Virus record (IMG/VR): IMGVR_UViG_3300049855_000348
Span: 64,001-128,000 of that record
Reading direction: 5' to 3' (one strand)
Source: a virus
DNA length: 64,000 nucleotides
Each line of letters begins with the position of its first letter. Positions within the stretch are counted from its first letter, which is position 1. This document shows, piece after piece, positions 5,222 to 53,641 of the stretch. The translations under genes were made by a program, and so were the position numbers. Below the pieces are notes generated by a model, which saw only the letters and a list, made by a program, of their open reading frames with translations, made no database searches and was not told the DNA's origin.

Positions 5222-5490
5222 AGCGGCTTCCCGTATTGGAGGGTGGTGAGGACTGAGGTTTTGATCTGTTCGGGAGTGTATTCGTGGTTGAAGCGGGCTT
5301 GGTAGGTGCCGGCCCGGGCGATCACAGGGTCGCCGTTGGCATCCTTCTTCCACTCGTGATCGACAGGCAAGTCGATCGTCGCGTAGTTGCGATGCAGTTC
5401 GAGGTGCAGCACCTTCACTCCCGGGAAGGTGTCCTTCTCGATCAGGGAGATGACTTCGGCGCGTTTGGAGGCGAGTTTGGCTTTGCTCAT
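5218..5490 (-). CDS. Hypothetical protein with leaderless start, 90 aa
   Basis: ATG 5490 lies exactly 6 nt after the TATACT box, so the expected transcript starts at the A of ATG; the in-frame GTG at 5496 falls inside the untranscribed promoter. The protein starts MSKAKLASKRAEV, then has a beta-rich region (VKVLHLELHRNYATIDLP). Function unknown. First gene of the operon that ends with the GLT-tail family. Confidence 0.8.
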   Translation of the reverse strand: MSKAKLASKRAEVISLIEKDTFPGVKVLHLELHRNYATIDLPVDHEWKKDANGDPVIARAGTYQARFNHEYTPEQIKTSVLTTLQYGKPL

Positions 5491-5496
5491 GCCCAC

Positions 5497-5524
5497 AGTA
5501 TAGCGACCTTTCTGTCTAAGTCAA
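5497..5524 (-). promoter_or_regulatory. Promoter/operator module (leftward), leaderless
   Basis: Minus strand: TTGACT, spacer TAGACAGAAAGGTCGC (16 nt), TATACT, then GTGGGC and ATG. The inverted repeat is centred in the spacer. It drives 5490 to 3439. Confidence 0.85.
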
Positions 5525-5531
5525 CCCTGAA

Positions 5532-5744
5532 TCAGTAGCAGCCGTAGCCGAGCACCTGGACGTGCTGACCGACCAGATCTTCACAGTCAGCCGCGTCATC
5601 GGCCTCTTTCTGGTCGACCAGATGCAGGCATGGCCCGAAGTTGATCGTACGGGGCGAGCCACCACCGTTGAAGCCGTCGAGGATCATCACCTCCTGCTCA
5701 GGATCACAGAGTTCGAGGGCAGCGATGAGTTCTTTGATCTTCAT
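5532..5744 (-). CDS. Small phage protein, leaderless start, 70 aa
   Basis: ATG 5744 is 6 nt after TATACT. The start MKIKELIAALELCDPEQEVM followed by ILDGFNGGGSPRTINFG is typical of a widespread family of small phage proteins in which a helix with DP(E/D)xEV leads into a beta strand. Molecular function is not known to me. It is the only gene between two promoter modules. Confidence 0.8.
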   Translation of the reverse strand: MKIKELIAALELCDPEQEVMILDGFNGGGSPRTINFGPCLHLVDQKEADDAADCEDLVGQHVQVLGYGCY

Positions 5745-5750
5745 GTCCAC

Positions 5751-5778
5751 AGTATAGCGATCATTTGGTCTAAGTCAA
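5751..5778 (-). promoter_or_regulatory. Promoter/operator module (leftward), leaderless
   Basis: Minus strand: TTGACT, spacer TAGACCAAATGATCGC, TATACT, GTGGAC, ATG. It lies back to back with a rightward copy of the module at 5804-5831. Confidence 0.85.
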
Positions 5779-5803
5779 CCTCTACCTCAAAATGGTTTGG
5801 GTG

Positions 5804-5831
5804 TTGACAGCGCCAAAAGGGTCAATATGCT
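5804..5831 (+). promoter_or_regulatory. Promoter/operator module (rightward)
   Basis: Plus strand: TTGACA, spacer GCGCCAAAAGGGTCAA (16 nt), TATGCT. It is the only rightward copy seen, and its spacer is a diverged form of the inverted repeat. The expected start is near 5838. An in-frame ATG at 5797 cannot be used because it lies upstream of this promoter. Confidence 0.65.
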
Positions 5832-5837
5832 CCCGGC

Positions 5838-5921
5838 TCCAAGGGCTAAGACGGTTCCGTTTCACGGAGTAGTCGAGGCAAGCCCAGAGATCACCCTCCA
5901 GCCACACCTGGAGGGTTTTTT
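5838..5921 (+). ncRNA. Putative short leader RNA or sRNA ending at an intrinsic terminator
   Basis: The segment between the rightward promoter and the terminator is about 84 nt. It holds a small hairpin (TCCGT-TTC-ACGGA inside GAC...GTC) and ends with the terminator stem and T6. It could be an independent small RNA or an attenuator leader for the methyltransferase gene that follows. No known family recognised. Confidence 0.4.
5894..5921 (+). terminator. Intrinsic terminator upstream of the methyltransferase gene
   Basis: CCCTCCAG-CCACAC-CTGGAGGG, an 8-bp perfect stem with a 6-nt loop, is followed by TTTTTT on the plus strand. It sits about 60 nt after the predicted transcription start and 14 nt before the ATG at 5935. 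Confidence 0.8.
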
Positions 5922-5934
5922 CGTTTATAAGTCC

Positions 5935-6537
5935 ATGAGCCCAGAATTAGTTGCAGAAGTGTTCACCCGCATCCATGACCAGAACCTCTGGGGCAGTCCT
6001 GAGAGCGTTTCTGGCGGTGGAAGTGCTCTGGAGGCCACCACCAAGATCCGCGCCGAGATCCCGGCCCTGATCGCCCAGCATGGCATCCTGAGCATGCTCG
6101 ACTTGCCCTGTGGAGACTTCAACTGGATGGGTGAGATGCTGAAGGTTCTGCCTGATCTGCGGTACACCGGTGGTGATGTGGTGGTTCCGCTCATCGAGAA
6201 GAACATCCGCAAGTACCCCACCATTCGCTTTGAGGTGTTGGATGTGATCTCGTCACCCCTGGCACAGCATGATCTGGTGTTCTGCCGTGACTGCTTGGTT
6301 CACCTGCCTGAGAAGCTGGTTCGCAAGGCCATCGAGAACATCAAGGAGAGCAACTGCCGCTTCCTCCTGGCGACCACGTTCCCCAAGGCCATCCCCCAGG
6401 ACATCGAAGTCGGACAGTGGCGTCCGCTCAACCTGATCCCCTTTCTGGGAGAGCCGATCCAGGTGATCAGTGAGTGCTTTGCTGACCTGGATGGCGTACC
6501 AACCGAGAAGCAACTCGGACTGTGGCGCTTCCGGTAA
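5935..6537 (+). CDS. SAM-dependent methyltransferase (class I), 200 aa
   Basis: Motif I of class I methyltransferases is at residues 54-61 (MLDLPCGD), followed by an acidic-type strand (YTGGDVVVPLIEKN) and a post-I motif (HDLVFCRDCLVHLPEK). The closest resemblance is to small methyltransferases found in surface-glycan clusters; the substrate is not visible. I start at MSPELVAEV because the upstream in-frame codons cover the promoter and terminator. It overlaps the next gene by TAATG. Confidence 0.8.
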   Translation: MSPELVAEVFTRIHDQNLWGSPESVSGGGSALEATTKIRAEIPALIAQHGILSMLDLPCGDFNWMGEMLKVLPDLRYTGGDVVVPLIEKNIRKYPTIRFEVLDVISSPLAQHDLVFCRDCLVHLPEKLVRKAIENIKESNCRFLLATTFPKAIPQDIEVGQWRPLNLIPFLGEPIQVISECFADLDGVPTEKQLGLWRFR

Positions 6538-7199
6538 TGCCTCCTCCACAACCACAACGACCGTTGTCCGACAAGGGTGACGTGGATGAGATCGGCGACC
6601 TGAAGGATCGCCGGACATGGCTGTCTGGCCTGCTGGTGCAGTTCGCCTACACCAACTTCCACCACGACCCACATCCGATCTGTGTGGTCCTGTACGCCGA
6701 CCGTCGGTACACCCATGCCATCAACGTCAGCTACCTGAGCGGTCAGCAGCGCCGGCAGTTCAAGGGTGGTCTGCGGATGTGGTACATGCTCGATCCTCGG
6801 CTGAAGTACCACTGGATGAAGATCTACAACAAGACGTGCTTGGTCGGCTATCGGACCTACTTCACCGGTCTGCTTCATCCGCTGACGGCTTGGCCCATTC
6901 AAGAGGTGAAGGACTCCATCCCGCAAGCCATGGGGCTGCTGGGCTCGATCAACGGCATCAAGCCGACGGACTGGGGCAAGTTCGCTGCTCGTGCCACCAA
7001 GGCGGCGACGGCTCGTGATCTGGCCATGAGCAACCGGCCTAGCGCCCGTCCTAATCAGCAGAGACCATCGAATCGTCCGAACGCAAGACCATTGGCGATT
7101 CGGGTTGGAGAAGCTATTCGACGGGCTGAACGTGGGATGAACCAGGGATCAATCCGACCGGGTCCTCTGCGACCACGTGGCCAGCGACCGGGGCAGTGA
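6537..7199 (+). CDS. Hypothetical phage protein with basic Pro/Arg tail, 220 aa
   Basis: The ATG at 6537 overlaps the previous TAA. The first 150 residues form a globular domain (WLSGLLVQFAYTNFHHDPH, VVLYADRRYTHAINVSYLSG) reminiscent of phage virion proteins that carry an 'xxPxVxVLxxYxxxxxxINxxYL' core. The last 70 residues are Arg/Pro/Asn-rich (RPNQQRPSNRPNARP) and probably disordered and nucleic-acid- or surface-binding. Converges with the leftward gene at 7213. Confidence 0.7.
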   Translation: MPPPQPQRPLSDKGDVDEIGDLKDRRTWLSGLLVQFAYTNFHHDPHPICVVLYADRRYTHAINVSYLSGQQRRQFKGGLRMWYMLDPRLKYHWMKIYNKTCLVGYRTYFTGLLHPLTAWPIQEVKDSIPQAMGLLGSINGIKPTDWGKFAARATKAATARDLAMSNRPSARPNQQRPSNRPNARPLAIRVGEAIRRAERGMNQGSIRPGPLRPRGQRPGQ

Positions 7200-7212
7200 T
7201 CGTGAATTTCGC

Positions 7213-7770
7213 TCACGGCTGATTCAAGGTATCGCCAGATAGACCAATGATCAGCCCACCAACAGAGATCATTGGTGTAACCATCGGAGAAATCTGCATG
7301 GTCATGTCGAGTTTTGCTTTGAATAAAACAGCACCTCTACCGGTTTTTGATTGACCGATTGAAATATGTGAAGCCAAGACGCTCTCCCCATCACACTCAG
7401 GGAAAGCGATGTCTAATGCATTCGTTATCGTTTTACCATCGAAAGCGAAACCACTACCACGTGGAACTGCGACACGATCGTAGTTCTTATAGCTCACTTC
7501 GTTGGTTGATTGATCGTCATTCGGTTCGCCATGATGCAGCGCAACATAGAATTTTTCTGACTCATCAACTGCCATCACCCTGTCGACTGGAAGACCACCA
7601 TCGCCGACCTGGACGGTATTTCCGAGATGCGGCAACACCTCAGGTGACGTTGGTTCGCGTTTGGTGATCTTGGGAAAGAGACCGGTCGCAGCGAGACCAT
7701 CCCAGTCCACACTGAACTTCATCAGTTCCTTCTGAGAGAGTCCGCCATCGCCGACAGGGATATCAGTCAT
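7213..7770 (-). CDS. Virion-type protein of the 'FYVALHxxDP' family, 185 aa
   Basis: Residues 74-105 (KFYVALHHGEPNDDQSTNE, VSYKNYDRVAVPRGSG) match the family also present at 47074-47514, which is common among phage tail-associated proteins. Two copies of a VGDGGL motif sit in the N-terminal 60 residues (IPVGDGGLS, VQVGDGGLP), outside the family core. It is the last gene of the leftward run from 10327. Its place in an otherwise non-structural operon is odd. Confidence 0.75.
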   Translation of the reverse strand: MTDIPVGDGGLSQKELMKFSVDWDGLAATGLFPKITKREPTSPEVLPHLGNTVQVGDGGLPVDRVMAVDESEKFYVALHHGEPNDDQSTNEVSYKNYDRVAVPRGSGFAFDGKTITNALDIAFPECDGESVLASHISIGQSKTGRGAVLFKAKLDMTMQISPMVTPMISVGGLIIGLSGDTLNQP

Positions 7771-7957
7771 GAAGATCTTTCAGTGGAGTGAGCGTTGGCT
7801 TCAGGCCGATCTCTCTTGCCAGTTCTTCAGCCTCTTCTTCAGCCATTTCTTCAAGGATCTTCTGTCGCTCTCTAGCCTCAAGAGCCTCACGGAGCCGTTG
7901 GATACCAGGGCTCACCTTCTCCAAGCCACCATCATAGACCTGAATTGGATTGTTCAC
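7763..7957 (-). CDS. Small acidic coiled-coil protein, 64 aa
   Basis: The N-terminus is MNNPIQVYDGGLEKV, a variant of the VGDGG motif. The rest is one long helix with heptads (LREALEARERQKILEEMAEE). Overlaps both neighbours. Possibly an adaptor or oligomerisation factor; function unknown. Confidence 0.7.
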   Translation of the reverse strand: MNNPIQVYDGGLEKVSPGIQRLREALEARERQKILEEMAEEEAEELAREIGLKPTLTPLKDLHD

Positions 7958-8324
7958 GTCTCTTCCCGAGGACGAAGGAGTTGAAGATGGATTCGAGGCA
8001 CCCCTCGTAGAGTAAGGTCGGCAGTGGATTACGAAACTGAATGTAGCTCATGGCATGGCCCATGCTCTCCAGCGTCTTGGTCAACTGGTCCATGTTCTGC
8101 ATCCCTTTGAGACGACGCTCGAAGTCGAGGATATTCGAGTGCTCAGCCCATTCGGGCTGCATGATACCCATGCGGAGGGCACGCTCATTGGTGTCGGCTT
8201 TGTAACCGCAGTTCTGACCGTTCTCGTCGAACAGGATCGCACCAACGTTGCAGCACTCATCGTGTCTGACTTGGTCGACGATCTTGAGGATCGAGTAGTT
8301 GCCGTATTTGGCCTTCTCATTCAT
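7932..8324 (-). CDS. DUF3037-like protein, 130 aa
   Basis: The N-terminal half (YSILKIVDQVRHDECCNVGAILFDENG) matches the DUF3037 signature, YS-[IL]-x-(Y/I)-V...ExxNVGxxLF. The remainder is helical. DUF3037 proteins are found in phages and bacteria and have no established biochemical role. ATGA overlap with the upstream gene and 26-nt overlap with the downstream gene. Confidence 0.75.
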   Translation of the reverse strand: MNEKAKYGNYSILKIVDQVRHDECCNVGAILFDENGQNCGYKADTNERALRMGIMQPEWAEHSNILDFERRLKGMQNMDQLTKTLESMGHAMSYIQFRNPLPTLLYEGCLESIFNSFVLGKRREQSNSGL

Positions 8325-8698
8325 GGGAGTCTCCTTACTGGTCCGCCGACTACGCCACTAGGTAGGCGCTTTTTGCTGGCTGCAAGGAGTTCATCTGCGT
8401 CGGTGTACTCGACAGCATTCCTCTCGCCTGGGTTTCCACCTCCGAGATCTCCATCACCGACATCAACTGAGATCGTCTGACCAACCTCGTCTACCTCAAC
8501 CTTCCTGTTGTTCCGATCGAGGATGATCTGGGCGATGGTGGAAGCCTTGATGGTGATCTGACCAACAGTGCCGTCCTTCATCTGAACTTTGATTTCGATC
8601 TCATCCTCCTCGGTGACATTGGCGTGGACGATTCTCCTCCCGACGTTGAGATCATCATCCGGAAAGTCCGAGAGGAGAGGATTGATTCCCTTTGCCAT
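8321..8698 (-). CDS. Hypothetical protein, 125 aa
   Basis: A small beta-rich domain (DEIEIKVQMKDGTVGQITIKA) is followed by another VGDGG-like segment (TISVDVGDGDLGGGNPGE) and a flexible tail. No recognised family. Part of the leftward operon from 10327. Confidence 0.7.
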   Translation of the reverse strand: MAKGINPLLSDFPDDDLNVGRRIVHANVTEEDEIEIKVQMKDGTVGQITIKASTIAQIILDRNNRKVEVDEVGQTISVDVGDGDLGGGNPGERNAVEYTDADELLAASKKRLPSGVVGGPVRRLP

Positions 8699-8702
8699 CT
8701 GA

Positions 8703-9179
8703 TCACCGCTTCGCAGCGATCAGCATGCACTTGTAGAGATTCCAGAACGCTGACCACGGACGTTTCTCGGTCAGTTCGTTGACCTCGATGAAGTGAATTA
8801 GTTCGATGACACTCCCCACGGTATCACAGGGAAAGTGCTCTAATTTCACCGTGTCGATGCCACCGTCGAGAACTTGAATGTTGTTCTCTTGGCTGTCGAC
8901 GTGTTTGAGGATGTCGTTGAGCAACGCTTTATGATCGATGCCTTCACTGTCGGTGAATTCACGCTTGCGGTTCTCTTCCTGAGCCGTCAGTAGAAGTTTG
9001 CGTAGGTCTTCATGTGAGACCACTCGTTCATGAATGGTATCACTACCGGCATCGATCTTCTCAACGTAGGTGAATTTCTTATCACCCTTCACGTAGATGA
9101 GATCGCCGACGATATGTCTGGACTGATCACCGGGTTCCTGGACCCGTATCCGCATCGGTTCTGTTTTTGTCTTGGCCAT
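8703..9179 (-). CDS. Hypothetical protein, 158 aa
   Basis: The N-terminus is beta-rich (RHIVGDLIYVKGDKKFTYVEK) and the C-terminus helical. Residues 98-111 contain ENNIQVLDGGIDTV, a variant of the dispersed QVGDGG motif. Its ATG overlaps the TAA of the upstream gene (TAATG at 9179). Confidence 0.7.
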   Translation of the reverse strand: MAKTKTEPMRIRVQEPGDQSRHIVGDLIYVKGDKKFTYVEKIDAGSDTIHERVVSHEDLRKLLLTAQEENRKREFTDSEGIDHKALLNDILKHVDSQENNIQVLDGGIDTVKLEHFPCDTVGSVIELIHFIEVNELTEKRPWSAFWNLYKCMLIAAKR

Positions 9180-10327
9180 TACTGGCTCCCTCCCGTGAGC
9201 TTCTTCGTCCCGAATGAGGTTGCCAGCGACTTAGCAACCTCGGCTTCCTTGCCGGTGCCGGCTGCGAGCAAGACACGGATGGCAGCCGTCTCAGCGAGTT
9301 GACTGCCTTCCTCCATGGCTTGCTCGACCACGAAGGTAGTGTTGTTCTTCCGACGCTCAGCGACCAACTGGAGGCTCTTGATCAGTTCCTCCATGGCCTT
9401 CTTGCCGATCGGCTTGCCGACGTTCTCACTCAGACTCTTGATGATGGCGGTAAGATCCTTGTCTTGCTCGCTGATCGAATCGTTGAGCCGCTGACGCATC
9501 CGATCCAGGATCGAGTCAGGGTTGAAGACACGTTCACGCAGGGCCACCGCGTTCTCGTCGATCATCCAGTAGTGATCCAGCGTGCAGGGGACCGATGAGC
9601 GACCAATGAGGAAGCTGGCGAACTGCTCAGGAGACAGAGCGATGCGGGCGATGGTCCGACCATCAGGGTTGTGGACCTCGATCGTCACATAGTGCTGGTG
9701 CTCGGACATGCTGCCGTTGAGATACCGCTGACCCGAGGTGATGGTCAGGGAGATCGTAGATCTGGAGCGTTCGAGATCTGACCAGTTGTTGTAGTCGTGC
9801 AGACCGTGCTGGGTGGACTGTTCGGCGTCGGTCCCCTCGTGCTTCTTGTGGCCATGCACATCAGCGCCCTTGCGAAGATTCTCAGCAGCGTCTTCGAGCT
9901 TCCGATGTGCCTGGATCAACTTGGCGAATGCCAGGATCTCTTCCTCAGAGATGGCCAGCATGCCCTTCGAGTTGCGGAAGCTGTAGTTCAGATTCAACTT
10001 CTCAGCCGCATTGATCCACGTACGGGCAGTGTGGTCAGAGACAGCGACGACACCCTGCTTCGGCAGGTAATTGATATCGTGGAGACCATCGGTCTTGAAT
10101 TGGACACGGTCGCAGTTGGCGTGCAGGTTGGAATCGACCGCCTCCGGTTTCACGTCAGTACGCTGTGCCTTGGCGACGACTGGACCTTCCAGGCCGATCT
10201 CATTTTCGATGTAGGAAACGGCGTCCAACAGTTCCTTCGGACCTTTGTACTCAACATTCCCAGCGAAGAGTGCCTTGGTGGACTTGGCCAGCGTCCGCAT
10301 GGCGATGATGAGCTTGTCGTTTTGCAT
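9179..10327 (-). CDS. Hypothetical phage protein, 382 aa, leaderless start
   Basis: ATG 10327 is 6 nt after the -10 position of the promoter at 10334-10361. There are three parts: an N-terminal helical region, a central beta domain (STISLTITSGQRYLNGSM, then HYVTIEVHNPDGRTIARIAL) of a type I associate with conserved large-phage proteins, and a long helical C-terminus (residues 260-380). No catalytic motif is visible. Function unknown. Confidence 0.8.
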   Translation of the reverse strand: MQNDKLIIAMRTLAKSTKALFAGNVEYKGPKELLDAVSYIENEIGLEGPVVAKAQRTDVKPEAVDSNLHANCDRVQFKTDGLHDINYLPKQGVVAVSDHTARTWINAAEKLNLNYSFRNSKGMLAISEEEILAFAKLIQAHRKLEDAAENLRKGADVHGHKKHEGTDAEQSTQHGLHDYNNWSDLERSRSTISLTITSGQRYLNGSMSEHQHYVTIEVHNPDGRTIARIALSPEQFASFLIGRSSVPCTLDHYWMIDENAVALRERVFNPDSILDRMRQRLNDSISEQDKDLTAIIKSLSENVGKPIGKKAMEELIKSLQLVAERRKNNTTFVVEQAMEEGSQLAETAAIRVLLAAGTGKEAEVAKSLATSFGTKKLTGGSQ

Positions 10328-10333
10328 TGGATA

Positions 10334-10361
10334 CCCTTAGCGACCTTTTGGTCTAAGTCAA
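10334..10361 (-). promoter_or_regulatory. Promoter/operator module with degenerate -10
   Basis: Minus strand: TTGACT, spacer TAGACCAAAAGGTCGC, then TAAGGG where other copies have TATACT, then TATCCA and ATG. Spacer and -35 are fully conserved, so this copy may depend more strongly on an activator. Confidence 0.65.
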
Positions 10362-11029: not shown

Positions 11030-11127
11030 CGTCCACACTGCTTGCATCGTGGGGTGGGATAGTCTCGGCCAACATGACCATCCCAGTCATGCCAGCCGAT
11101 GAAGCAGAGAAATCCCTTCCAAGTCAT
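11014..11127 (-). CDS. 37-aa zinc-knuckle-like protein
   Basis: This short gene starts with an ATGA overlap at the end of the metallopeptidase/VWA gene. Residues run MTWKGFLCFIGWHDW, then a CxxC with following His (CKQCGRWH). One Cys-x4-His plus CxxC-x3-H suggests a zinc site, as in the GYHKW...CxxC protein at 4371. Easily missed because of its length; the arrangement of overlaps supports it. Confidence 0.6.
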   Translation of the reverse strand: MTWKGFLCFIGWHDWDGHVGRDYPTPRCKQCGRWHGI

Positions 11128-13049
11128 GCGTACTGCTCCTGTGCGGCCTTCGCCGACTGCTTGCGGACCCAGCGATCGAAGATGCCGATCAGGTCGTTGA
11201 TGTTCTTGCAGGTCACCGTCTCGACGATGCCGGAGTGCTTCACCACCTCATCGAGCGACACCAGGAGGCACGCCTCGAAGCCGGCATCCTTGAGCATCTT
11301 CGAGAGCATGGGCACCTCGGTCTCGTACACCGCACCGTCGGTGAAGACGAAGGCTACCTTGCGGTTCGACTTGGCACGCAGGAGAGCCTTGACGCAACCA
11401 GTGCCGCAGGCGATCAGCGAGGTACCGCCATCCGAGTTGTGCTTGTTGCCGCGCACTGCCGAGACCTGCTCGTCGAGCGACTTGGTGATGGTGGCATCGG
11501 TGTTCCACACCACCTCAGCGTTCTCGCAGCTAGCAGCCTGGAGCGCAAAGAGAGCGTTGTGGGCGAAGCTGTTCAGCAAACCGTTGATGTTCGACGTGCT
11601 GCTGCTGAAGTCGGTAGCGACCACGCAGGCCACCGGCGCATCGGTGATCTCTTCGATCGAGTTCACGAAGGGCTTGCGGGCGAGCATGCCCTTGCGGTCA
11701 GCCGCCACCACGGTGGGCAGGTGCAGGCGACCGGTCTTCCGCAGACCGGCGACACGATCCATCACCAGCGTGCGCAGCTTGCGCATGCTCATCTTCACCC
11801 GGTTGGCGAAGTTCCGATCGACAGCGTCGGCAATCTTGGTGACGTTCACATCACCCTTCTCACTGCCGATGCCGCGAACGGTCGACAGATCGGTCTCCGG
11901 CATCTCGATTTCTTCGTTCTTGTCCGGGCCGTTCATCCCAGCCGAAGCCGAGTCGCCAGCGGCGTCTTCCTTGGCCTGAGCTTTCTTGGTGCGACCCACC
12001 TCGCCGACCTTGGCCTTGGCCTTCTCCAGGGCACCTTCCAGGTCTGCCGGCTGCTGAGCCTCCCCTTCCTGCTCGTTCTTCTTCTGGCCGCCAGAGCCAT
12101 TCTGAGAGGGTTTCGGCTCTTTGGGCTGCTGGGCACCGCCCTGGGGCTTGAAATCGTTCTGAGCGCCTTCCTGAGGCTCCTGATCGCCCTCCTCGCCACC
12201 CTCCCCCTCGCCATCCTCTTCCGGACGCTCTTTGGGGCGCTCGCCGGCACGACCAGCACCCGACTTGATGCGGATCTGGCTGTCGGCCTCCCCGTCTCCA
12301 CCACCCTCGCTGTCCTTCTGCTCACCCTTGGGAGCGGGCTGATCGTTGAGGATCTTGGTAGCCAGGGCAACGTTGGCTGACTTCTTGGCTTCCGGGAACA
12401 CGTCGAAGTAGGAGATGCACCACTTTTCCAGGGTGTCCTTGCTGACGGTCTTCAGACGGGTGATGCGCTGGGCTTCCTCGACCAGGGAGGCGAACTTATC
12501 CTTCCAGCCCGGCTGGTCTTCGTACTTCTTCTCGGCCACGTAGGCGTTGATCGAGTCGCTGGCAGCCAGACGGACCTCATCACCGCAGTGCGGGCGGAAG
12601 AAGAGCAACGCCCACAGGCTCGGATCGAAGTTCTCTTTCGACCAGGGGTCGCGGACGTTCTTGGCATCGGCAGCGTGCTCGTGGCCGGCTTCGTCATAGC
12701 GGTTGTTGGCGATGACGTTGATCGCCAGATTGGCCAGGACCGCCTCGTAGTGCGGACGGTTCAAGATGAACTGGCGTTCGATGCGGCAGTCGTCGATCAG
12801 GTTGGCGAGTTCACGCAGGTTGCCAGCCGGGTAGTTGGCCGGGTAGTTCAGGTGGCAGCACTCGTGGACCAGCACGGCGAAGCGGTCGTCTTCCTCCCAG
12901 TTGATCGCCGAGCCCATGATGACCTGACGGCCATTGGTGTGCGGGCCGTCGGACGGCAACCCAGCGATGACCTTGACCTGCTTGCCGGTGATGACCGTAG
13001 CGAAGGCAGAGGGCTTGGCGAAGTTGATGTTTGCTGATGCTTTGCTCAT
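11124..13049 (-). CDS. HExxH metallopeptidase-like / von Willebrand factor A protein, 641 aa
   Basis: Domains in order: an N-terminal metallopeptidase-like domain with VLVHECCHLNYP (HExxH at residues 62-66); a helical region to about 230; a low-complexity Gly/Glu/Gln/Lys linker (about 235-390); and a C-terminal VWA-like domain with MIDAS residues DFSSS (from residue 480), GGTS (541-544) and FTDG (569-572). The architecture matches the DUF2201/CobT-type partners of MoxR ATPases. The AAA+ partner is at 15751-16710. Such pairs usually act as ATP-driven chaperones or metal-insertion machines; the phage target is unknown. ATG 13049 is leaderless. Confidence 0.85.
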   Translation of the reverse strand: MSKASANINFAKPSAFATVITGKQVKVIAGLPSDGPHTNGRQVIMGSAINWEEDDRFAVLVHECCHLNYPANYPAGNLRELANLIDDCRIERQFILNRPHYEAVLANLAINVIANNRYDEAGHEHAADAKNVRDPWSKENFDPSLWALLFFRPHCGDEVRLAASDSINAYVAEKKYEDQPGWKDKFASLVEEAQRITRLKTVSKDTLEKWCISYFDVFPEAKKSANVALATKILNDQPAPKGEQKDSEGGGDGEADSQIRIKSGAGRAGERPKERPEEDGEGEGGEEGDQEPQEGAQNDFKPQGGAQQPKEPKPSQNGSGGQKKNEQEGEAQQPADLEGALEKAKAKVGEVGRTKKAQAKEDAAGDSASAGMNGPDKNEEIEMPETDLSTVRGIGSEKGDVNVTKIADAVDRNFANRVKMSMRKLRTLVMDRVAGLRKTGRLHLPTVVAADRKGMLARKPFVNSIEEITDAPVACVVATDFSSSTSNINGLLNSFAHNALFALQAASCENAEVVWNTDATITKSLDEQVSAVRGNKHNSDGGTSLIACGTGCVKALLRAKSNRKVAFVFTDGAVYETEVPMLSKMLKDAGFEACLLVSLDEVVKHSGIVETVTCKNINDLIGIFDRWVRKQSAKAAQEQYA

Positions 13050-13055
13050 GCCCAG

Positions 13056-13083
13056 AGTATAGCGACAAAAAGGTCGCCGTCAA
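13056..13083 (-). promoter_or_regulatory. Promoter/operator module, perfect inverted repeat
   Basis: Minus strand: TTGACG, spacer GCGACCTTTTTGTCGC, TATACT, CTGGGC, ATG. The spacer has perfect outer arms GCGAC-N6-GTCGC. The TGA stop of the upstream gene (13080-13082) lies inside the -35 box. Confidence 0.85.
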
Positions 13084-16710: not shown

Positions 16711-16743
16711 GGTTGCTATGCTCCGTGCTTGGTTGATGCGCAG

Positions 16744-16771
16744 AGTATAGCGACCAATTGGTCTATGTCAA
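16744..16771 (-). promoter_or_regulatory. Promoter/operator module, perfect GACC-N4-GGTC
   Basis: Minus strand: TTGACA, spacer TAGACCAATTGGTCGC, TATACT. The core GACCAATTGGTC is a perfect palindrome. Unlike the leaderless copies, a leader of about 28 nt with a Shine-Dalgarno precedes the ATPase ATG. Confidence 0.85.
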
Positions 16772-20821: not shown

Positions 20822-21088
20822 TTATGCGAGACGAAGAAGTGGACGATAGCTGTTGAGAGAAGGGGCCACACCACATGGTGTTGCCCGATACTCCTCGACC
20901 GCTTTCTTCCACACACGTTCGGCACGGTCAGCCGCACCAGATGCGCGAGCCAGGAGAACGAGGTTTGCTTCCCTGTTCTCTTCGTCCTCTACACACAGAC
21001 TACGAAGGTCACATTCGAGGGCGATAGCCTCGACCATTGCCTTGCGCAGCGGGTGATTGGGAAGAGTTGGATCAGACGGTTTGAACAT
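20822..21088 (-). CDS. Helical hypothetical protein, leaderless start, 88 aa
   Basis: ATG 21088 is exactly 6 nt after the TATATT box. Starts MFKPSDPTLPNHPLRKAM and is all-helical (NLVLLARASGAADRAERVW). Function unknown. Confidence 0.75.
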   Translation of the reverse strand: MFKPSDPTLPNHPLRKAMVEAIALECDLRSLCVEDEENREANLVLLARASGAADRAERVWKKAVEEYRATPCGVAPSLNSYRPLLRLA

Positions 21089-21094
21089 GCCAAC

Positions 21095-21122
21095 AATATA
21101 GCGACCATTTAGTCTAAGTCAA
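21095..21122 (-). promoter_or_regulatory. Promoter/operator module, leaderless
   Basis: Minus strand: TTGACT, spacer TAGACTAAATGGTCGC, TATATT, GTTGGC, ATG. It drives 21088 and the genes to its left. Confidence 0.85.
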
Positions 21123-21461: not shown

Positions 21462-21837
21462 TGGTGGACGCGCCCGGAATCGAACCGGGGTCCAAGAGAT
21501 CTTCTTTCTGTGTGCTCTACCAAGAATATGAGGTGTTTCTGTCCTCCAACCTAGTTGGTCTTTTCTCGATGACCTACACTCGTCTGCGTTGTTCTTTCGT
21601 GCCTTACCCGCAGCGGGAAAGCCCTAGCGTCCGGCCTATGGTACCAGGGTGCGACCGGCGACGGCCCTGGGGTTGTTGGTGCAGCGTCTAGCTGCCTGAT
21701 TGCTCAGGCGGCGAGTGCGATGCGACCGTACTCGACGTGATCGTCGGGTATTTTTTTACGGGTTTTTTAGGTGGACTCCCGCACCACCTCTTGGCTCACC
21801 CTGATGTCTGTTCTCCTGTCGAGACCTGTTCGCGCCC
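21462..21837 (-). ncRNA. ssrA: Transfer-messenger RNA (tmRNA), phage-encoded
   Basis: The 5' end GGGCGCG pairs completely with CGCGTCC just before an encoded ACCA 3' end. The T-arm is CCCGG-TTCGATT-CCGGG. The 5' region (GGGCGCGAACAGGTCTCGAC) matches the tmRNA start pattern. Pseudoknot-1 arms AGGTGG/CCACCT precede an A-rich run, then the tag frame. By alignment with E. coli (A-run, five bases, resume codon) the tag starts at GAC 21745 and reads DDHVEYGRIALAA, stop TGA at 21704. Helix GCCTGA-GCAA-TCAGGC surrounds the stop, as in known tmRNAs. Length 376 nt is normal. It would let the phage rescue stalled ribosomes with its own degradation tag. Confidence 0.93.
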
Positions 21838-22200: not shown

Positions 22201-22228
22201 TTTATAGCGACCATTTGGTCTATGTCAA
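22201..22228 (-). promoter_or_regulatory. Promoter/operator module driving the tmRNA region
   Basis: Minus strand: TTGACA, spacer TAGACCAAATGGTCGC, TATAAA. The TGA stop of the glycosyltransferase gene (22225-22227) is part of the -35 box. Transcription runs into the tmRNA region. Confidence 0.85.
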
Positions 22229-29188: not shown

Positions 29189-29611
29189 TCAGTCCTTATT
29201 GAAGGTGATGTCGGTGGTCGACAGACGCCAGTAGTCGAGAGCGTTGTAGGGAACATTGATGCGCTGGGTGGTGTAGACGCTATCCGGCTTCAATGCCACC
29301 ACAGCATCCTTCACGCACCAGCCACGACCGGTCAGGATGAAGTTCAGATTGATGACTCTGTTGGTGGTGTTGCGGAAGGTCACAACCACATCAGATCGTC
29401 CACCACGATCGTACTCACGATTGTCGAAGCACCACGGAGAGCCATCGCTCTGAAACCGGGTCTGCGTGATCTCGAAGTGGCCGACCGGCTCGTCCTGGTT
29501 GCGGTTCTGCACCACCTGATGGGCTGTGGTGGTGACCATGCGACCGTTCTGGCCGCATCCGATGGTGAACAGGCAGGCGAGCAGGAGGACGAAGTGAAAG
29601 ATGTTCTTCAT
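29189..29611 (-). CDS. Lipoprotein, leaderless start, 140 aa
   Basis: It has a classical lipoprotein signal: basic-poor N-terminus, hydrophobic core FHFVLLLACLFTIGC with a lipobox (FTIGC) at Cys19, then a hydrophilic mature part with beta strands (RSDVVVTFRNTTNRVINLN). ATG 29611 is 6 nt after TATACT, so it is leaderless and under the operator module. Phage lipoproteins of this kind can block superinfection or be spanin subunits; which one applies is not visible. Confidence 0.8.
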   Translation of the reverse strand: MKNIFHFVLLLACLFTIGCGQNGRMVTTTAHQVVQNRNQDEPVGHFEITQTRFQSDGSPWCFDNREYDRGGRSDVVVTFRNTTNRVINLNFILTGRGWCVKDAVVALKPDSVYTTQRINVPYNALDYWRLSTTDITFNKD

Positions 29612-29617
29612 GCCCGA

Positions 29618-29645
29618 AGTATAGCGATCAATTTGTCTAAGTCAA
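29618..29645 (-). promoter_or_regulatory. Promoter/operator module, leaderless
   Basis: Minus strand: TTGACT, spacer TAGACAAATTGATCGC, TATACT, TCGGGC, ATG. It drives the lipoprotein gene. Confidence 0.85.
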
Positions 29646-33776: not shown

Positions 33777-33807
33777 GGTGAATACTCCTGCTTTGCTTGT
33801 GCGTGGA

Positions 33808-33835
33808 GTATAGCGACACTTTGGCTGATGTCAAC
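33808..33835 (-). promoter_or_regulatory. Promoter/operator module, variant left arm
   Basis: Minus strand: TTGACA, spacer TCAGCCAAAGTGTCGC, TATACT, then a 32-nt leader with AGCAGGAG. The left arm TCAGCC is shared only with the copy at 14933-14960. Confidence 0.8.
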
Positions 33836-39486: not shown

Positions 39487-42024
39487 TCAGACAACGCCGA
39501 CGGCGGCGAGGGCTTCGGTGAAGTTCGCACCCTGAGCGGTGATGACGAAGCTCAGGATGATCTTCTCGGCTGCCTTGGTCGGTTCGACCACGATGTAGCC
39601 GTAGACCTCGTTGTTGTCACGAGCGGCACTGCTCGTGGTCTGAGCGTCAATCTTCACCAGGAAGTTGTTCAAGCCACGCTTGTTCTTCACTTCCTGGTAG
39701 ATCGGGGTCAGGATCTTCACCAAGCTGGCCCAGAGGACAGCGTCGTTCGGATCGAAGAGTTCCGGACGAACGGCGGCGACCGAGGTGCGCTTGATGTAGT
39801 TCAACATGCGACGCACGTTGACACGATCGAGAGCCGAAGCGGCACGCTGGAGAGTGCGCTGACCGAAGATGACCACGCCATCCTTGGGGAAGTTCACGAT
39901 CGGGTTGACGGCGTTGCCGTTCGAGTACATGAAGTCGCGGTCACCCTGGTTGTTCACTGCATTGCCCTGGATGCCCAGAGCACGCACGAGGCGACCACGC
40001 TTGAAGCCAGCCGGAGCGAACCACACCTCACCGACGTTATCGGAGTAGGCGATCTGTTCGAGGACGCAGACGCTGGGCGGAACCCAGATCGTGCCACCGT
40101 TGAACAGGTCCTGGACCGGGAGCCAGCCGTAGTACAGAGCACCGAAGCTGGAGTTGAAGGCAGCGGAGTTGCCGAAGCCACGACCGTTGTGCCAGTCAAC
40201 CACATCCTGCGGAGACAGACCCTTGGTGACATCGCTGCCCGAGGGCGGATCGACGATGTAGATCAGATCGCCGGCACCTTCACAGATCGACAGACCAGCA
40301 CGGACGACAGCAGCCTGATCGAAACCAGGAGCAGCCAGAATGCTGTTGTCGTAGGTCTCGCGGTTGGCGTAGCCGTAGAGGCCGGAGTTGTCAGCAGGGT
40401 TGCCGATGACTGCATCGACGAGGTCGTTGTAGTCTTCCGGGATGCCGCTCTCACCACCGGTGAAGGCAGCGTCCTGCGAGGTGTAGAACTCGTAGGCGTT
40501 CCAGGTCAGGAAGGACTTGGCTGCGACATCGCTGATCACGTCGATACCACCCAACGCCGTTGTCAGCGAGGTCGAATCGCTGAGCAGGGTGATGTCTGCG
40601 GCAGCGAGCGGCGAGATGCCGCTGAAGCCTTCGAGTGCATCGATGAAGCTGCCGCTGACACCAGACGGCTGGATGCGCAGGTTGACAGCCTTCTCGCCGA
40701 GTTCGTTCGTCTCACGGTACTCGACGGTCATGAGACCCGAGTCATCGTGGCCGAAGTACATCTTGGCGCTGTTGGCGTACTCACCAGGGCTCGAAGCCTT
40801 GAAGTGCAGCTTGAGCGAGTTGGTGTAGTCGAGGCGCTTGGTACGGGTGCTCGACAGATTGATGGTGCCGATGCTTTCGTCGACCGGGTTGACGATCTCA
40901 CCCTGCGGCAGGTTGGTACCACCGTTGACCAGGGTGACAGTGCCGGCGTCGATGAGACCAGAACCGTCGCTGCCCGCACCGTTCGCAGCGGTGACGATCA
41001 GACGGGCCGTGGTGTTGGCAGCCAGAGCGGACAACACTTCAGCAGCCGTGGTGACGGTCTCGTTGATGTTGACCGTGACTTCACGACCAGAAACGCTGAC
41101 TGGTGGCAGACCGGTGAAGGTGTTGCCGACATCGACGAAGGTGACCGAGATGCCATTGCCGGCGATGCCGGGCTTCTTGGCCGTCAACTGAAGCTGGCTG
41201 TACGGCGTTCCACCATCGTAGGCGTTGGTGGCGTAGCCGGGCTCGTTCGGGCTGACCGACGAGGTGTCGTCAACGAGCTTGAACTCCAGGTTGAGAGCGA
41301 CGAGATCAGCGAGGTTCGCCGTCTTGATGGCGATGAACTTCTGCACGCCGTTCACATTGTCTTCGACCAGGATGTTCTCAGCACGCAGCGGAGCGTCGAC
41401 CATCAAGCGGTTGAAGCGGTTGGTGAACTGATCGTAGTTCTCGAAGGTCTTCGTGGCGGAAGCCATCGGCACGAGCACCTGCACGAACGCACCGGAGCCA
41501 GTGATGGCAGCGTTGAGTTCGTCGAGAGTGGTGATCGGAGCGAAGGCGGCGGTGAAGATGTTCGAGGCACCGAAGCGGCGGACCAGGGCATCGAAGGCAT
41601 CCGAGCCCAGGAACGAACCACTGCGCTTGAACACCTGGATGGCGAAGGCGAGTTGGCCACCATTGATGGTGATGCCGGAATCGTCCTTGGCGAGATACAG
41701 GACCTGCGAGTTGACGACGATGGGCGAGTCAGCACTGGCGAAGGCTTCCGTGCCGTCAGTGACGCGGGTGTACCAGACCTGCGAGGTCTTGGACAGCGCA
41801 TTCATCACGGCGTGCATGCCGAAGCGTGCTTTACTGGTGCCGATCGCCGGTGGCTTGCCGAAGATGTTCGCAGCATTGGACTGCGAGGTCAGCAGCGTGG
41901 GTACGCCGACCGGTCCCTTACTGGCCACGCCAACCAAGGCGAGGACGGTGCTGGCGATACGGGCAGCGTAAGCCGACACATCGACTTCATTGGCGTAGGC
42001 ACCAGGGCTGAGATAGGTCGTCAT
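39487..42024 (-). CDS. Contractile tail sheath protein (T4 gp18-like), 845 aa
   Basis: N-terminus MTTYLSPGAYANEVDVSAYA and LALVGVASKGPVGVPTLLTS are the sheath handshake region. The C-terminal third (WHNGRGFGNSAAFNSSFGALYYGWL, GVVIFGQRTLQRAASALDRVNVRRMLNYI) matches the conserved sheath domain, ending IILSFVITAQGANFTEAL. At 845 aa it is longer than T4 gp18 (659 aa); the extra length is in the central beta-rich domains, which protrude from the sheath. Confidence 0.92.
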   Translation of the reverse strand: MTTYLSPGAYANEVDVSAYAARIASTVLALVGVASKGPVGVPTLLTSQSNAANIFGKPPAIGTSKARFGMHAVMNALSKTSQVWYTRVTDGTEAFASADSPIVVNSQVLYLAKDDSGITINGGQLAFAIQVFKRSGSFLGSDAFDALVRRFGASNIFTAAFAPITTLDELNAAITGSGAFVQVLVPMASATKTFENYDQFTNRFNRLMVDAPLRAENILVEDNVNGVQKFIAIKTANLADLVALNLEFKLVDDTSSVSPNEPGYATNAYDGGTPYSQLQLTAKKPGIAGNGISVTFVDVGNTFTGLPPVSVSGREVTVNINETVTTAAEVLSALAANTTARLIVTAANGAGSDGSGLIDAGTVTLVNGGTNLPQGEIVNPVDESIGTINLSSTRTKRLDYTNSLKLHFKASSPGEYANSAKMYFGHDDSGLMTVEYRETNELGEKAVNLRIQPSGVSGSFIDALEGFSGISPLAAADITLLSDSTSLTTALGGIDVISDVAAKSFLTWNAYEFYTSQDAAFTGGESGIPEDYNDLVDAVIGNPADNSGLYGYANRETYDNSILAAPGFDQAAVVRAGLSICEGAGDLIYIVDPPSGSDVTKGLSPQDVVDWHNGRGFGNSAAFNSSFGALYYGWLPVQDLFNGGTIWVPPSVCVLEQIAYSDNVGEVWFAPAGFKRGRLVRALGIQGNAVNNQGDRDFMYSNGNAVNPIVNFPKDGVVIFGQRTLQRAASALDRVNVRRMLNYIKRTSVAAVRPELFDPNDAVLWASLVKILTPIYQEVKNKRGLNNFLVKIDAQTTSSAARDNNEVYGYIVVEPTKAAEKIILSFVITAQGANFTEALAAVGVV

Positions 42025-48491: not shown

Positions 48492-48519
48492 AGACACCGA
48501 CCCTATTCTGGACTGAACC

Positions 48520-49308: not shown

Positions 49309-49311
49309 ATC

Positions 49312-50204: not shown

Positions 50205-50542
50205 AGAACCGCTTCAGTTCAGTCGGTGAGTGGGCACCAAACTTTCACCTACGTGTGAAAGAGTGCGTGAACGACGAGATGATGGAGAAATTCATCAAGC
50301 GGTACATCGAGCGTCTTCAGGAAGATCTCAACCGCATTGCTCAGAACCGAATCGCCGAAGAAGACCTCTCTGAAAATCTCACCTTCGAGGTTGCTCGTTC
50401 AGGTCCGAAAGAGATCGCCATTCGTCCGTCGAACCCAGTGCTGTTCTACAAGCTGGAGTTCGGTGAGTTCAATGCCGATGGTACCCTGAAGACCCCACCA
50501 CACTCGATCATGAAAGAGTGGAAGGCCATCATCAGGGTCTGA
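50201..50542 (+). CDS. Virion-type protein, TTG start, 113 aa
   Basis: The start is TTG 50201, overlapping the previous TGA (TTGA). Helical N-terminus (MMEKFIKRYIERLQEDLNRIAQN), then a beta-rich end (LTFEVARSGPKEIAIRP, VLFYKLEFGEFNADGTL). A shared terminator follows. Confidence 0.65.
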   Translation: MKNRFSSVGEWAPNFHLRVKECVNDEMMEKFIKRYIERLQEDLNRIAQNRIAEEDLSENLTFEVARSGPKEIAIRPSNPVLFYKLEFGEFNADGTLKTPPHSIMKEWKAIIRV

Positions 50543-50547
50543 ACATG

Positions 50548-50582
50548 AAAGAGCCCTGCCAGGATCACCAGCAGGGCTCTTT
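50548..50582. terminator. Bidirectional terminator between convergent units
   Basis: AAAGAGCCCTGC-N11-GCAGGGCTCTTT: 12 bp of perfect inverted repeat with A/T runs on both sides. It separates the rightward gene ending at 50542 from the leftward gene ending at 50603. Confidence 0.85.
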
Positions 50583-50602
50583 GCAGACGATCTGAAGCAG
50601 AA

Positions 50603-50956
50603 TTACTCAGTGACGAGGGTCTTGTCGCCATTGACTCCCAGCGACTTGCGTTCCTCATCACTGAGGCCATCTACTGCCATGGCATTGATGATTGCTCGAC
50701 GTACCCAGGCTTCGGTGATGCTGTGGACAGCATCGTTGACCGCCTGAGCGATGATGTAGACCACCGCTACCAGGATGATGCCGTTGATGGTCAGGGCGAT
50801 GTTCTCGCGGCCAAACCAGATCAGGCAGGCGACGATGGCCAGCATGGACAGCAGCTTCTTGCTGAGCCAACCGGACTTCTTGGGGAGAAGGGAAGAGAAA
50901 CCGGCACCGACCTTGAGGCCGGCGATCTTCTCTTGGAGCTTGGCGATGTCCGACAT
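50603..50956 (-). CDS. Two-pass membrane protein, 117 aa
   Basis: Start ATG 50956 with AAAGGA just after the previous stop. Soluble N-terminus with KLQEKIAGLKVGAGFSS, two hydrophobic stretches (LLSMLAIVACLIWFG, IALTINGIILVAVVYIIAQA) and a soluble tail. The small size, two transmembrane segments and position next to an anchored protein would be compatible with a lysis or membrane role, not proven. Confidence 0.7.
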   Translation of the reverse strand: MSDIAKLQEKIAGLKVGAGFSSLLPKKSGWLSKKLLSMLAIVACLIWFGRENIALTINGIILVAVVYIIAQAVNDAVHSITEAWVRRAIINAMAVDGLSDEERKSLGVNGDKTLVTE

Positions 50957-50966
50957 GACGTTCCTT

Positions 50967-51581
50967 TCAGTAACGTGTTGACAGAGAGATATAAGGAGAC
51001 CAACCAGAACCAGACCGATAATCGGAGAAATAGCCCAGACCGATCCCGAGCCGTTGCCAGAAGGGGGAGACAGTTTGGGAGGGGGCGTAGAAGGAGACTC
51101 CAAGTCCAGCCTGATGAGGGGAAATGAGTAGGTCGGGGGAGATGACACCGTAAGCGTATCGAACGGGCGAATATCTGAGTCCCACGTCAACTCCCACCTC
51201 ACTGTCGGTGGTTCCTCCATGGGTTCTGTCCTCGGCAACTCGAAGTCCAGTCCAAGCACCAAGGTCTGTCCGGTAGTCGCTAAAGTAACGTTTTGCAGTG
51301 TACTTGACGGTCCATCCGTCTTTGGCGTCACGCTGGGTTCGCTCCTGGTAGAGCAGCCCGCCATCGTACACAGAAGTAGACCAAGCAGCACCAGTTGGCG
51401 AGAAGACCTCAAGCACCCCATCAGGCTTGTCATCAGCATTGCGTGACCCCACATAGTCGTTGGCGGTGACCGGGATTGCGACTTGTGTCCCTTTATCGGG
51501 GGCACGACCACCGGACCCAAAATAGACCATGGCGGCGAAAACGCCGAGCACGACAAGGATGAGACCAGGGTGGTTTTCCAC
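50967..51581 (-). CDS. N-terminally anchored beta-rich protein, 204 aa
   Basis: Starts at GTG 51581 (MENHPG) with one hydrophobic segment LILVVLGVFAAMVYFGSG. The rest is beta-rich with repeated YFSDYR (YFSDYRTDLGAWTGLRV and YFSDYRSGSGWSPYISL) and DVGLRYSPVRYAYGVISPDLLISPHQAGLGVS, a pattern found in phage proteins of unknown function. A second frame across 50990-51460 encodes a lipoprotein-like signal. Confidence 0.7.
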   Translation of the reverse strand: MENHPGLILVVLGVFAAMVYFGSGGRAPDKGTQVAIPVTANDYVGSRNADDKPDGVLEVFSPTGAAWSTSVYDGGLLYQERTQRDAKDGWTVKYTAKRYFSDYRTDLGAWTGLRVAEDRTHGGTTDSEVGVDVGLRYSPVRYAYGVISPDLLISPHQAGLGVSFYAPSQTVSPFWQRLGIGLGYFSDYRSGSGWSPYISLSTRY

Positions 51582-51603
51582 CCTAGTATGTATCAGGCCA
51601 GCC

Positions 51604-51957
51604 CTACGCCCATTCCTTGTCGAGGTTGATCTTCAAGCGGCGAAGAGCAGCGCAGGCATCACGTTTGGCTGTCAGGCGGCTGTCACGCTGCTTGGCTCCG
51701 CTGATCGGTACGATGTTACCATCGACCATCAGCACACCGAGGTAACATAGAACTTCACCATACTCATCACTTCTCATCTGTTGGATGAAGTCGGCTTCGA
51801 CCACCGGGCGCTTCTTGGCACGAGCGAGAGCACGAACGATGCGCTTGGCTGCCGGTTTCTTTCCTTCTTTCTTCAAGATGTCGACGAGGGTGAGTAGAGC
51901 GGTAGAGACGAATGCGTAGTCCTCTCCCGTGAAGGTGATGCGGACAGGCTGTTTCAT
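51604..51957 (-). CDS. Basic helical protein, 117 aa
   Basis: Starts MKQPVRITFTGEDYAFVSTAL. Highly basic helices (KKEGKKPAAKRIVRALARAKKR) and an Arg/Lys-rich C-terminus suggest nucleic-acid binding. Function unknown. ATGA overlap with the upstream gene. Confidence 0.65.
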   Translation of the reverse strand: MKQPVRITFTGEDYAFVSTALLTLVDILKKEGKKPAAKRIVRALARAKKRPVVEADFIQQMRSDEYGEVLCYLGVLMVDGNIVPISGAKQRDSRLTAKRDACAALRRLKINLDKEWA

Positions 51958-52871
51958 GATTTCGCTTTCGAGTAGAGCTTGGTCTTGCGGTCAACCGAGA
52001 TGAGTTTCTTGCGCTTGAGTGAGGCGAGACGCTTGGTGATCTGTTCACAGTAGCCATGATGTTCATCAGCAACCACGTCACCGTTGTGATAGTGGAGATC
52101 ATAGATCAGGTTGCAGATCTCACAAAAGCTAAGGAACACACCGGCCTTTTGGGTGAAGAGATTCAAGATCCGCTTGTCGACATCATCGGTACGCAGCAGA
52201 GCCTTGGGTGGGATGTAAGTCACCACCTTCGAGAGATCTGGCACCGGCACATCGAACAGTTGGCAGACCTGCTGGAAAATGTTTGGATCGGTAAAAACCA
52301 TCCAGCCGTTGTCGAGTTCGACACCGCCGATGAAGGATCGACGTTCTTGGTTCTTCCAGAAGCTGGTCGGGTCGAAGAGGGAATCCCACAGGCAGATGCC
52401 ACGCTTCAGACTGACCGGGCTTGGATCGCCGTATTCACCCTGGATCTTGGTGCCGTTGAGCAGGGAGTCGATCGTCTCTTCGATCTTCGGCAGATGGTTC
52501 ACGCAGCCGAGAACGTAGACCGTGGTTTTCGTCTTGGTCTTACTACGGGTAAGCCAGCCATTTGGCCGATCACGCTCAGCGAGTGGACCGGTGACTTCGA
52601 TCGCCTTGGCCACCAGGAGTTCAGCGACACGGAAGTGACGGATAGCGTTGAAGGCACCAGCGACGGCACCAAACTCGTACTCGGCTGCCCCCATGTAATC
52701 GAAACTGAAGAACTGACAGAGCAGTTTCTGAGCTTCGTTCGAGAGACCAGATCCACCACCACCGAAGTCGAAGGGACCGATCTTACCACCCCAATGCTTG
52801 CTGGGTGGGTTCAGCGATTGGATCAGGTAGGTGCTGCGATACTTGTCGGGGTCGGGGATCAGTTCTCTCAC
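51954..52871 (-). CDS. Phage protein with 'FFSFDYMGAAEYEFGA' motif, 305 aa
   Basis: GTG start overlapping the previous TGA. The block FFSFDYMGAAEYEFGAVAGAF is a hallmark of a phage family of unknown function. The C-terminal 60 residues (HHGYCEQITKRLASLKRKKL) look like a winged helix. Likely early-expressed regulator or modulator, inferred from position only. Confidence 0.75.
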   Translation of the reverse strand: MRELIPDPDKYRSTYLIQSLNPPSKHWGGKIGPFDFGGGGSGLSNEAQKLLCQFFSFDYMGAAEYEFGAVAGAFNAIRHFRVAELLVAKAIEVTGPLAERDRPNGWLTRSKTKTKTTVYVLGCVNHLPKIEETIDSLLNGTKIQGEYGDPSPVSLKRGICLWDSLFDPTSFWKNQERRSFIGGVELDNGWMVFTDPNIFQQVCQLFDVPVPDLSKVVTYIPPKALLRTDDVDKRILNLFTQKAGVFLSFCEICNLIYDLHYHNGDVVADEHHGYCEQITKRLASLKRKKLISVDRKTKLYSKAKS

Positions 52872-53020
52872 TTCTTGGCCTTTCTCTTCTTTTTCTTCTT
52901 CACCTTGATGACTGGTCCGATCCAGAATCCAATGGTCTTGTTGCGATGTTCGATGGCAAGTTTCCTGGTCGGCTCATGACCGACGATGGAACCACCTCGC
53001 AGCTTGGTTGCCCAGGTCAC
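52868..53020 (-). CDS. Small Lys-rich protein, 50 aa
   Basis: Starts at GTG 53020, overlapping the stop of the gene at 53017, and ends in a TGA that overlaps the next GTG. The sequence MTWATKLRGGSIVGHE is followed by a strand, and the C-terminus is a run of Lys/Arg (KKKKKRKAKK). It fills an otherwise empty 150-nt gap with four-base overlaps at both ends, which supports it. Confidence 0.6.
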   Translation of the reverse strand: MTWATKLRGGSIVGHEPTRKLAIEHRNKTIGFWIGPVIKVKKKKKRKAKK

Positions 53021-53607
53021 AGTAAGACCTCTTTGAGTGCCTTCATCACCCTGGCCAACTTCTCCTGGTTGAGTGAACGAAGTTCCAGCTTGAACTCCGG
53101 AGCTTCAAGGGTGCCCTCACCTCGATTGAGATCGGGGCAGAACTCTTTCAGTGCTTCAAGATCTTTCTCGTAGTTCGAGATCACACCATCAACTACTTTA
53201 CGATACTGCTTTGAAATCTCAGTGTTCTTCTTGATTCGACGTGCCCGTTCAGCTTCTTCCTTGACCACTTCGATCACCTTGTCGAAGTCGAGGCTCTTTT
53301 TGACCTCACTGACCCGTGGCGTCTTGGCATAGTAGCCGGTCGAAGACTTGATATCGAGAACGTAGCGAATGTAACTGGTTTTGTAATTGCTGTCACGTCC
53401 TTCGATTGATTTGAAGGTCAAATTCACTTCCGTGTCGTCATCGAAGAGAACATTGATGATGGAAAGCCAGCCATAGACGGCTTCATTGCGCTTATTACTG
53501 GTTACTCCTTTGACCGTTCCGGCGACTCCACTCCGCAACCGTTTGATGAGTTCTTCGTGAGCTTCGTTGGAACGCTTGAGGGTGGCGAGTGAGGTTGCGT
53601 CTTGCAT
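53017..53607 (-). CDS. Hypothetical protein, leaderless start, 196 aa
   Basis: ATG 53607 is 6 nt after TATACT. Starts MQDATSLATLKRSNEAHEEL. Helix, beta-sheet region (FDDDTEVNLTFKSIEG, TSYIRYVLDIKSST) and a long C-terminal helical part (VVKEEAERARRIKKN). No catalytic signature. Function unknown. Confidence 0.75.
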   Translation of the reverse strand: MQDATSLATLKRSNEAHEELIKRLRSGVAGTVKGVTSNKRNEAVYGWLSIINVLFDDDTEVNLTFKSIEGRDSNYKTSYIRYVLDIKSSTGYYAKTPRVSEVKKSLDFDKVIEVVKEEAERARRIKKNTEISKQYRKVVDGVISNYEKDLEALKEFCPDLNRGEGTLEAPEFKLELRSLNQEKLARVMKALKEVLL

Positions 53608-53613
53608 GCCCAG

Positions 53614-53641
53614 AGTATAGCGACCAAAAGGTCTATGTCAA
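53614..53641 (-). promoter_or_regulatory. Promoter/operator module, leaderless, stop codon in -35
   Basis: Minus strand: TTGACA, spacer TAGACCTTTTGGTCGC, TATACT, CTGGGC, ATG. The TGA of the deoxyribonucleotidase gene (53638-53640) lies within the -35 box. Confidence 0.88.

Follow-up and report, generated by a model that had tools for sequence, protein, structure and literature searches.

A 34-bp promoter cassette that ends directly at a start codon recurs throughout a 220,489-base virus record, and judged from the nucleotide sequence its copies very probably specify genuine leaderless mRNAs. The window, a stretch of 64,000 nucleotides, corresponds to bases 64,001-128,000 of this record; about 156 kb of the record were examined as stretches, together with the flanks of each pattern match. 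The repeated cassette consists of TTGACW, a dyad operator within a 16-bp spacer, TATAMT and then NTGGGC. The family pattern reads TTGACW-TAGACCnnnnGGTCGC-TATAMT with the dyad GACCnnnnGGTC located between the -35 and -10 elements, and the dyad is also written GCGACCnnnnGGTCGC. With up to three mismatches allowed, the record contains 36 matches compared with none for the reversed control pattern, and the window harbors 12 family matches versus 0.1 expected. Nearly all sigma70-like sites in the 156 kb are members of this dyad promoter family, and about 32 of the copies precede genes. The alignment of the 19 copies with a good -10 element places TTGACW at -34 to -29, TATAnT at -12 to -7, nTGGGC at -6 to -1 and the ATG at +1. 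The cassette, its spacing, the lack of a Shine-Dalgarno sequence and the start codon can be read directly from the DNA.

Copies of the cassette in the window

A sequence-only reading of the window had claimed that the ATG follows the hexamer at the -10 position by exactly 6 nt at seven sites, and this spacing was found at all seven of them. Six sites stand as members of the predicted leaderless class, all on the minus strand, whereas 10327 is doubtful. The cassette at 5491..5524 comprises TTGACT (5524-5519), the dyad spacer, TATACT (5502-5497) and the discriminator GTGGGC (5496-5491); the ATG (5490-5488) of the adjoining 90-aa ORF (5218..5490, coding score 22.9) is the predicted +1, with a gap of 6 nt and without a Shine-Dalgarno sequence. 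The second cassette (5745..5778; TTGACT, TATACT 5756-5751, GTGGAC) precedes a 70-aa ORF (5532..5744), whose ATG (5744-5742) likewise represents the predicted +1 after 6 nt. A 641-aa ORF with a strong coding score (11124..13049) has its ATG and predicted +1 at 13049, 6 nt after the -10 element of the cassette 13050..13083 (TTGACG GCGACCTTTTTGTCGC TATACT CTGGGC). The weakest coding score of the set (3.4) belongs to the 88-aa ORF at 20822..21088, which follows the cassette 21089..21122 (TTGACT, TATATT 21100-21095, GTTGGC) with the same gap. At 29612..29645 (TTGACT, TATACT 29623-29618, TCGGGC) the upstream gene terminates in a TAG whose last base is 3 nt ahead of TTGACT, and the 140-aa ORF (29189..29611; gap 6 nt) has a lipoprotein signal peptide-like start (MKNIFHFVLLLACLFTIGC). 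The cassette 53608..53641 (TTGACA, TATACT 53619-53614, CTGGGC) contains the upstream TGA stop inside its -35 element and leads, again after 6 nt, into a 196-aa ORF (53017..53607, coding score 43.6) with ATG 53607 as the predicted +1.

The gene starting at 10327 is probably not leaderless, because its family copy (10328..10361, minus strand) has a poor -10 element (TAAGGG) and a usable Shine-Dalgarno sequence, AAGGG, 7 nt before the ATG. In this copy and those at genome positions 169371 and 44794, the -10 region now reads TAAGGG, TAGGAT or TATCAT-AAGGA, which yields a Shine-Dalgarno sequence in the place of the -10 element or discriminator; judged by these letters, a leaderless promoter may have turned into a ribosome-binding site. 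An eighth site, for which a gap of 5 nt had been noted, does show this distance (copy 3415..3447, minus strand; ATG 3414), but it should be dropped, as the ORF has only 15 codons and the -10 element is TATAGG. The stretch 3369-3414 (minus strand) may encode a 15-codon leader peptide, MQSFLYRLYLLIWNS, whose TGA is directly followed by the ATG of a 160-aa gene (2884-3366).

Two leadered copies, both on the minus strand, provide internal controls. In the first (16711..16771), TATACT is located at 16749-16744, the predicted +1 is the A of a C|A step at 16737, a GGAG is present, and ATG 16710 of an AAA ATPase lies 33 nt from the -10 element. The second (33777..33834) has TATACT at 33812-33807, C|A at the +1 position, AGGAG and ATG 33776. 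Two further elements of the window may be recorded here. On the plus strand, 5804-5925 comprises a promoter-like TTGACA GCGCCAAAAGGGTCAA TATGCT, in which the operator is degenerate, and after it a strongly structured stretch of 90 nt (z -4.3) that ends in a hairpin and a T run; it is a candidate small RNA or attenuator ahead of the gene starting at 5936, and the comparison of the stretch with Rfam gave no match. A tmRNA with the tag DDHVEYGRIALAA is encoded at 21462-21837 (minus strand), and about 365 nt upstream of it, at 22228, the promoter family is represented by a copy with TATAAA.

Spacing and the predicted transcription start

Among the 32 gene-linked copies, 22 have an ATG at a distance of exactly 6 nt from the -10 element, 19 of them with a good -10. 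When the first ATG of each ORF of at least 45 aa is counted, 20 of 32 sites have exactly this gap, since the copies at genome 39245 and 169371 have an extra ATG at 0 or 3 ahead of the one at 6. Under gaps uniformly distributed over 38 values the binomial probability is about 4e-24; the count of sites overstates the number of independent events, as the copies may share a recent origin that includes the ATG. The remaining gaps are 7, 9, 24, 24, 24, 27, 30, 32, 33 and 53 nt. The distribution is thus bimodal, with 6-9 nt or with 24-33 nt and a Shine-Dalgarno sequence, and the lack of any gap of 10-23 nt shows that there are two discrete classes, the leaderless one being the majority. This agrees with the original observation that the other copies carry leaders with ribosome-binding sites. 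Two near-misses at genome 48874 and 53555, one with a GTG at the +1 position (171-aa ORF) and one with an ATG 7 nt after TATAAT, could by their sequence also be leaderless.

Bacterial RNA polymerase favors a purine after a pyrimidine for the start of transcription. The A of the ATG occupies position 7 below the -10 element, and C is found at -1 in 17 of the 19 copies with a good -10. In these 17 the step at position 7 is the sole pyrimidine-purine step within positions 5-10, TG within the ATG aside. The C|A step is retained at the same position in four of six leadered copies, where the start codon is absent. As the modal start of sigma70 RNA polymerase is 7 bp below the -10 element (PMC5730371), the earlier proposal that the A of the ATG would be the first transcribed base fits this pattern well, and we infer the exact start site from it.

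The similarity among the copies extends in both directions, with GTAGGTG upstream and ATGAGCAA downstream, as would be expected if the fixed gap merely reflected descent, i.e., if an ancestral promoter plus start (about -35 to +9) had been copied and the leaderless register had no selected role. This explanation appears very unlikely, given that spacer and operator bases vary whereas the -10 element, the register of the ATG and the C at -1 are constant, that the downstream proteins are unrelated and that the 5' ends fold more weakly than their synonymous recodings; common descent would in any case be compatible with function. Gene duplication was likewise rejected as an explanation of the constant gap, because the downstream proteins show no clear paralogy.

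Translation starts, leaders and neighboring genes

The proposed ATGs are indirectly supported as the real translation starts. In-frame codon log-odds are -0.40 just upstream, where 24 in-frame stops occur, and +0.33 in codons 2-8, so that the coding signal sets in precisely at the ATG. The TGA of TTGACW is in the frame of the ATG, a consequence of the 16-bp spacer and the 6-nt gap, and therefore upstream starts are excluded, save for a GTG at -6 in some copies. Residue 1 of the 5744 ORF is aligned to profile position 1 of phrog_22847, the signal peptide-like N terminus of the 29611 ORF (judged by eye) backs its Met1, and at genome 169371, where the -10 element is uncertain, a Metallophos match from residue 1 backs the start. 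The alternative that translation begins at internal codons with a Shine-Dalgarno sequence, the cassette thus yielding ordinary leadered mRNAs, draws on a few genes (genome 14135, 39875, 69778, 161598) with a better Shine-Dalgarno at an in-frame internal start. It conflicts with codon statistics that are coding from codon 2, with the profile alignment at 5744 and the signal peptide at 29611, which needs Met1, and in several genes the first 30 codons offer no candidate for an internal start; we consider it the least probable of all the explanations, and extremely so.

The Shine-Dalgarno energy at the ATGs of the leaderless class averages -2.1 kcal/mol, compared with a median of -5.1 for the best candidates of the window genes; 10327 and genome 169371 are exceptions with a Shine-Dalgarno sequence. 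The earlier claim that none precedes these ATGs accordingly holds for the listed sites apart from 10327. The start codon at the +6 position is ATG in 22 cases and GTG in one, compared with 32 ATG and 15 GTG or TTG among the Shine-Dalgarno genes of the window. The first codons of the leaderless class are A-rich and contain more CA/AC steps than those of other genes; CA repeats have been reported to enhance the translation of leaderless mRNA (PMC9031893). The summed folding energy of the first 42 nt is -49.7 kcal/mol versus -104.0 +/- 9.8 for synonymous recodings (300 sets encoding the same peptides with the codon usage of the phage), none of the 300 being as weak, whereas other genes differ little from their recodings (-7.6 vs -8.5). 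The starts of leadered family members are also fairly unstructured, hence weak structure is not specific to the leaderless copies.

Both classes directly adjoin the preceding gene, and its stop codon is often located beside or inside the -35 element. In leadered copies this stop is found between -16 and +9 nt relative to the start of the -35 element, and 24-33 nt nevertheless separate the -10 element from the ATG. As they spend 18-27 more bases on a leader, squeezing alone cannot explain the leaderless class, which bears out the view that it is a sub-class of modules and not a side effect of compact genes. Many copies are part of same-strand arrays that leave no room for a terminator, the stop codon of the preceding gene falling between -8 and +4 nt relative to the -35 element. 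Together with the A-rich, unstructured starts, this arrangement would suit operon transcription, in which longer messages initiated further upstream pass through the cassette and account for most of the translation; the 30S subunit would bind a start that is unstructured or rich in A and lacks a Shine-Dalgarno sequence, and the cassette would act only as an auxiliary promoter. Such RNA would have no Shine-Dalgarno sequence before the gene, and there would be no reason for the fixed 6-nt gap, for the C at -1 or for a distinct class of copies with 24-33 nt and a Shine-Dalgarno sequence. We therefore regard translation from read-through messages as improbable and favor the leaderless modules.

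Proposed control and relation to known systems

In the proposed mechanism, a sigma70-type RNA polymerase would start on the A of the ATG at each cassette, and the message, beginning with 5'-AUG and with a first stretch of 40 nt that is A-rich and unstructured, would be translated from its 5' end, independently of a Shine-Dalgarno sequence. The spacer dyad sits where a bound protein would block the polymerase, and a putative dyad-binding protein is therefore likely to repress the copies jointly or to set their timing. RNA that enters from upstream would lack a Shine-Dalgarno sequence ahead of the gene, so that most of the protein synthesis should be governed by the regulated promoter of the cassette itself. 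That the family forms a genome-wide regulon in which the leaderless start acts as an insulator, with protein appearing only upon activity of the adjoining operator-controlled promoter, is a tentative and rather doubtful extension; translation from the 5'-AUG, the regulator and the insulation are all deduced. A search of the record for a regulator, confined to the HTH_3 fold (PF01381), gave no match, and a phage sigma factor was discarded as a candidate because the record has no Sigma70_r2 match. A peptide chain release factor is encoded at record position G000:C1:23960-24283 (minus strand; RF-1 domain, 94 bits; PCRF also matched).

The record is a divergent T4-type myovirus, an assignment based on the presence of a tail sheath (39487-42024) and a T4-type terminase, the best phage matches of the latter being about 31% identical. 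Relatives of the 641-aa protein (11124-13049), the tail sheath and TerL were sought in the viral contigs and none was found, whereas an AAA ATPase query matched one distant contig. The cassette DNA patterns had no match in the viral contigs, nor did the cassette in phage records. A single match in a bacterial genome (a Bacteroidales MAG) has no ATG in register and was taken as chance. The comparison of the phage tmRNA with phage records for a clue to the host gave no result.

Leaderless phage messages are known, mostly from single repressor genes or from phages of thermophiles and actinobacteria. The middle and late genes of the large Thermus phage phiYS40 mostly have leaderless mRNA (PMC3594737), and in our analysis this phage served as a positive control, with -10-like hexamers peaking 6-7 nt before the annotated starts. 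The present virus resembles it in having many leaderless genes, here about 20 by sequence prediction, but differs in its strong -35 element, its dyad operator and its near-identical promoter copies, and the best matches to its TerL and tail sheath came from other phages. A shift in the IF2/IF3 balance belongs to the phiYS40-type leaderless program; IF1 and IF3 families were sought in the record without a match. In lambda (cI) and PY54 (cI and cro), leaderless repressor genes have a promoter start that coincides with the AUG near a dyad operator (PMC4488713). This layout is shared, as a prediction, by the present cassettes, although one or two lysogeny-switch genes are concerned there and about 20 mostly unknown genes scattered over the record here, and the search for a lambda-type HTH repressor gave no HTH_3 match in this record. 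Cluster O mycobacteriophages such as Corndog have SigA promoters predicted to be leaderless and more than 30 dyad repeats (PMC4351075). There, repeat and promoters are mostly separate and three promoters are predicted to be leaderless, whereas the present dyad forms the promoter spacer and the predicted leaderless promoters number about 20. The "-10 motif adjacent to ORF" of Deinococcus-Thermus, located about 6-7 bp before leaderless ORFs with a role shown by mutation (PMC12340547), is matched in distance, with 22 of 32 copies at 6 nt and one at 7, but represents a cellular, phylum-wide pattern and not one operator-bearing phage cassette. The unusual feature is accordingly the occurrence of one operator-promoter-start cassette about 20 times beside unrelated genes, with leadered sister copies.

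If the insulator reading were true, read-through RNA in same-strand arrays would be poorly translated, which would provide switch-like control without terminators. The position of the promoter can fix the starts of many small phage genes, and the roughly 20 leaderless and at least six leadered copies of one promoter/operator represent a natural experiment on the contribution of the leader.
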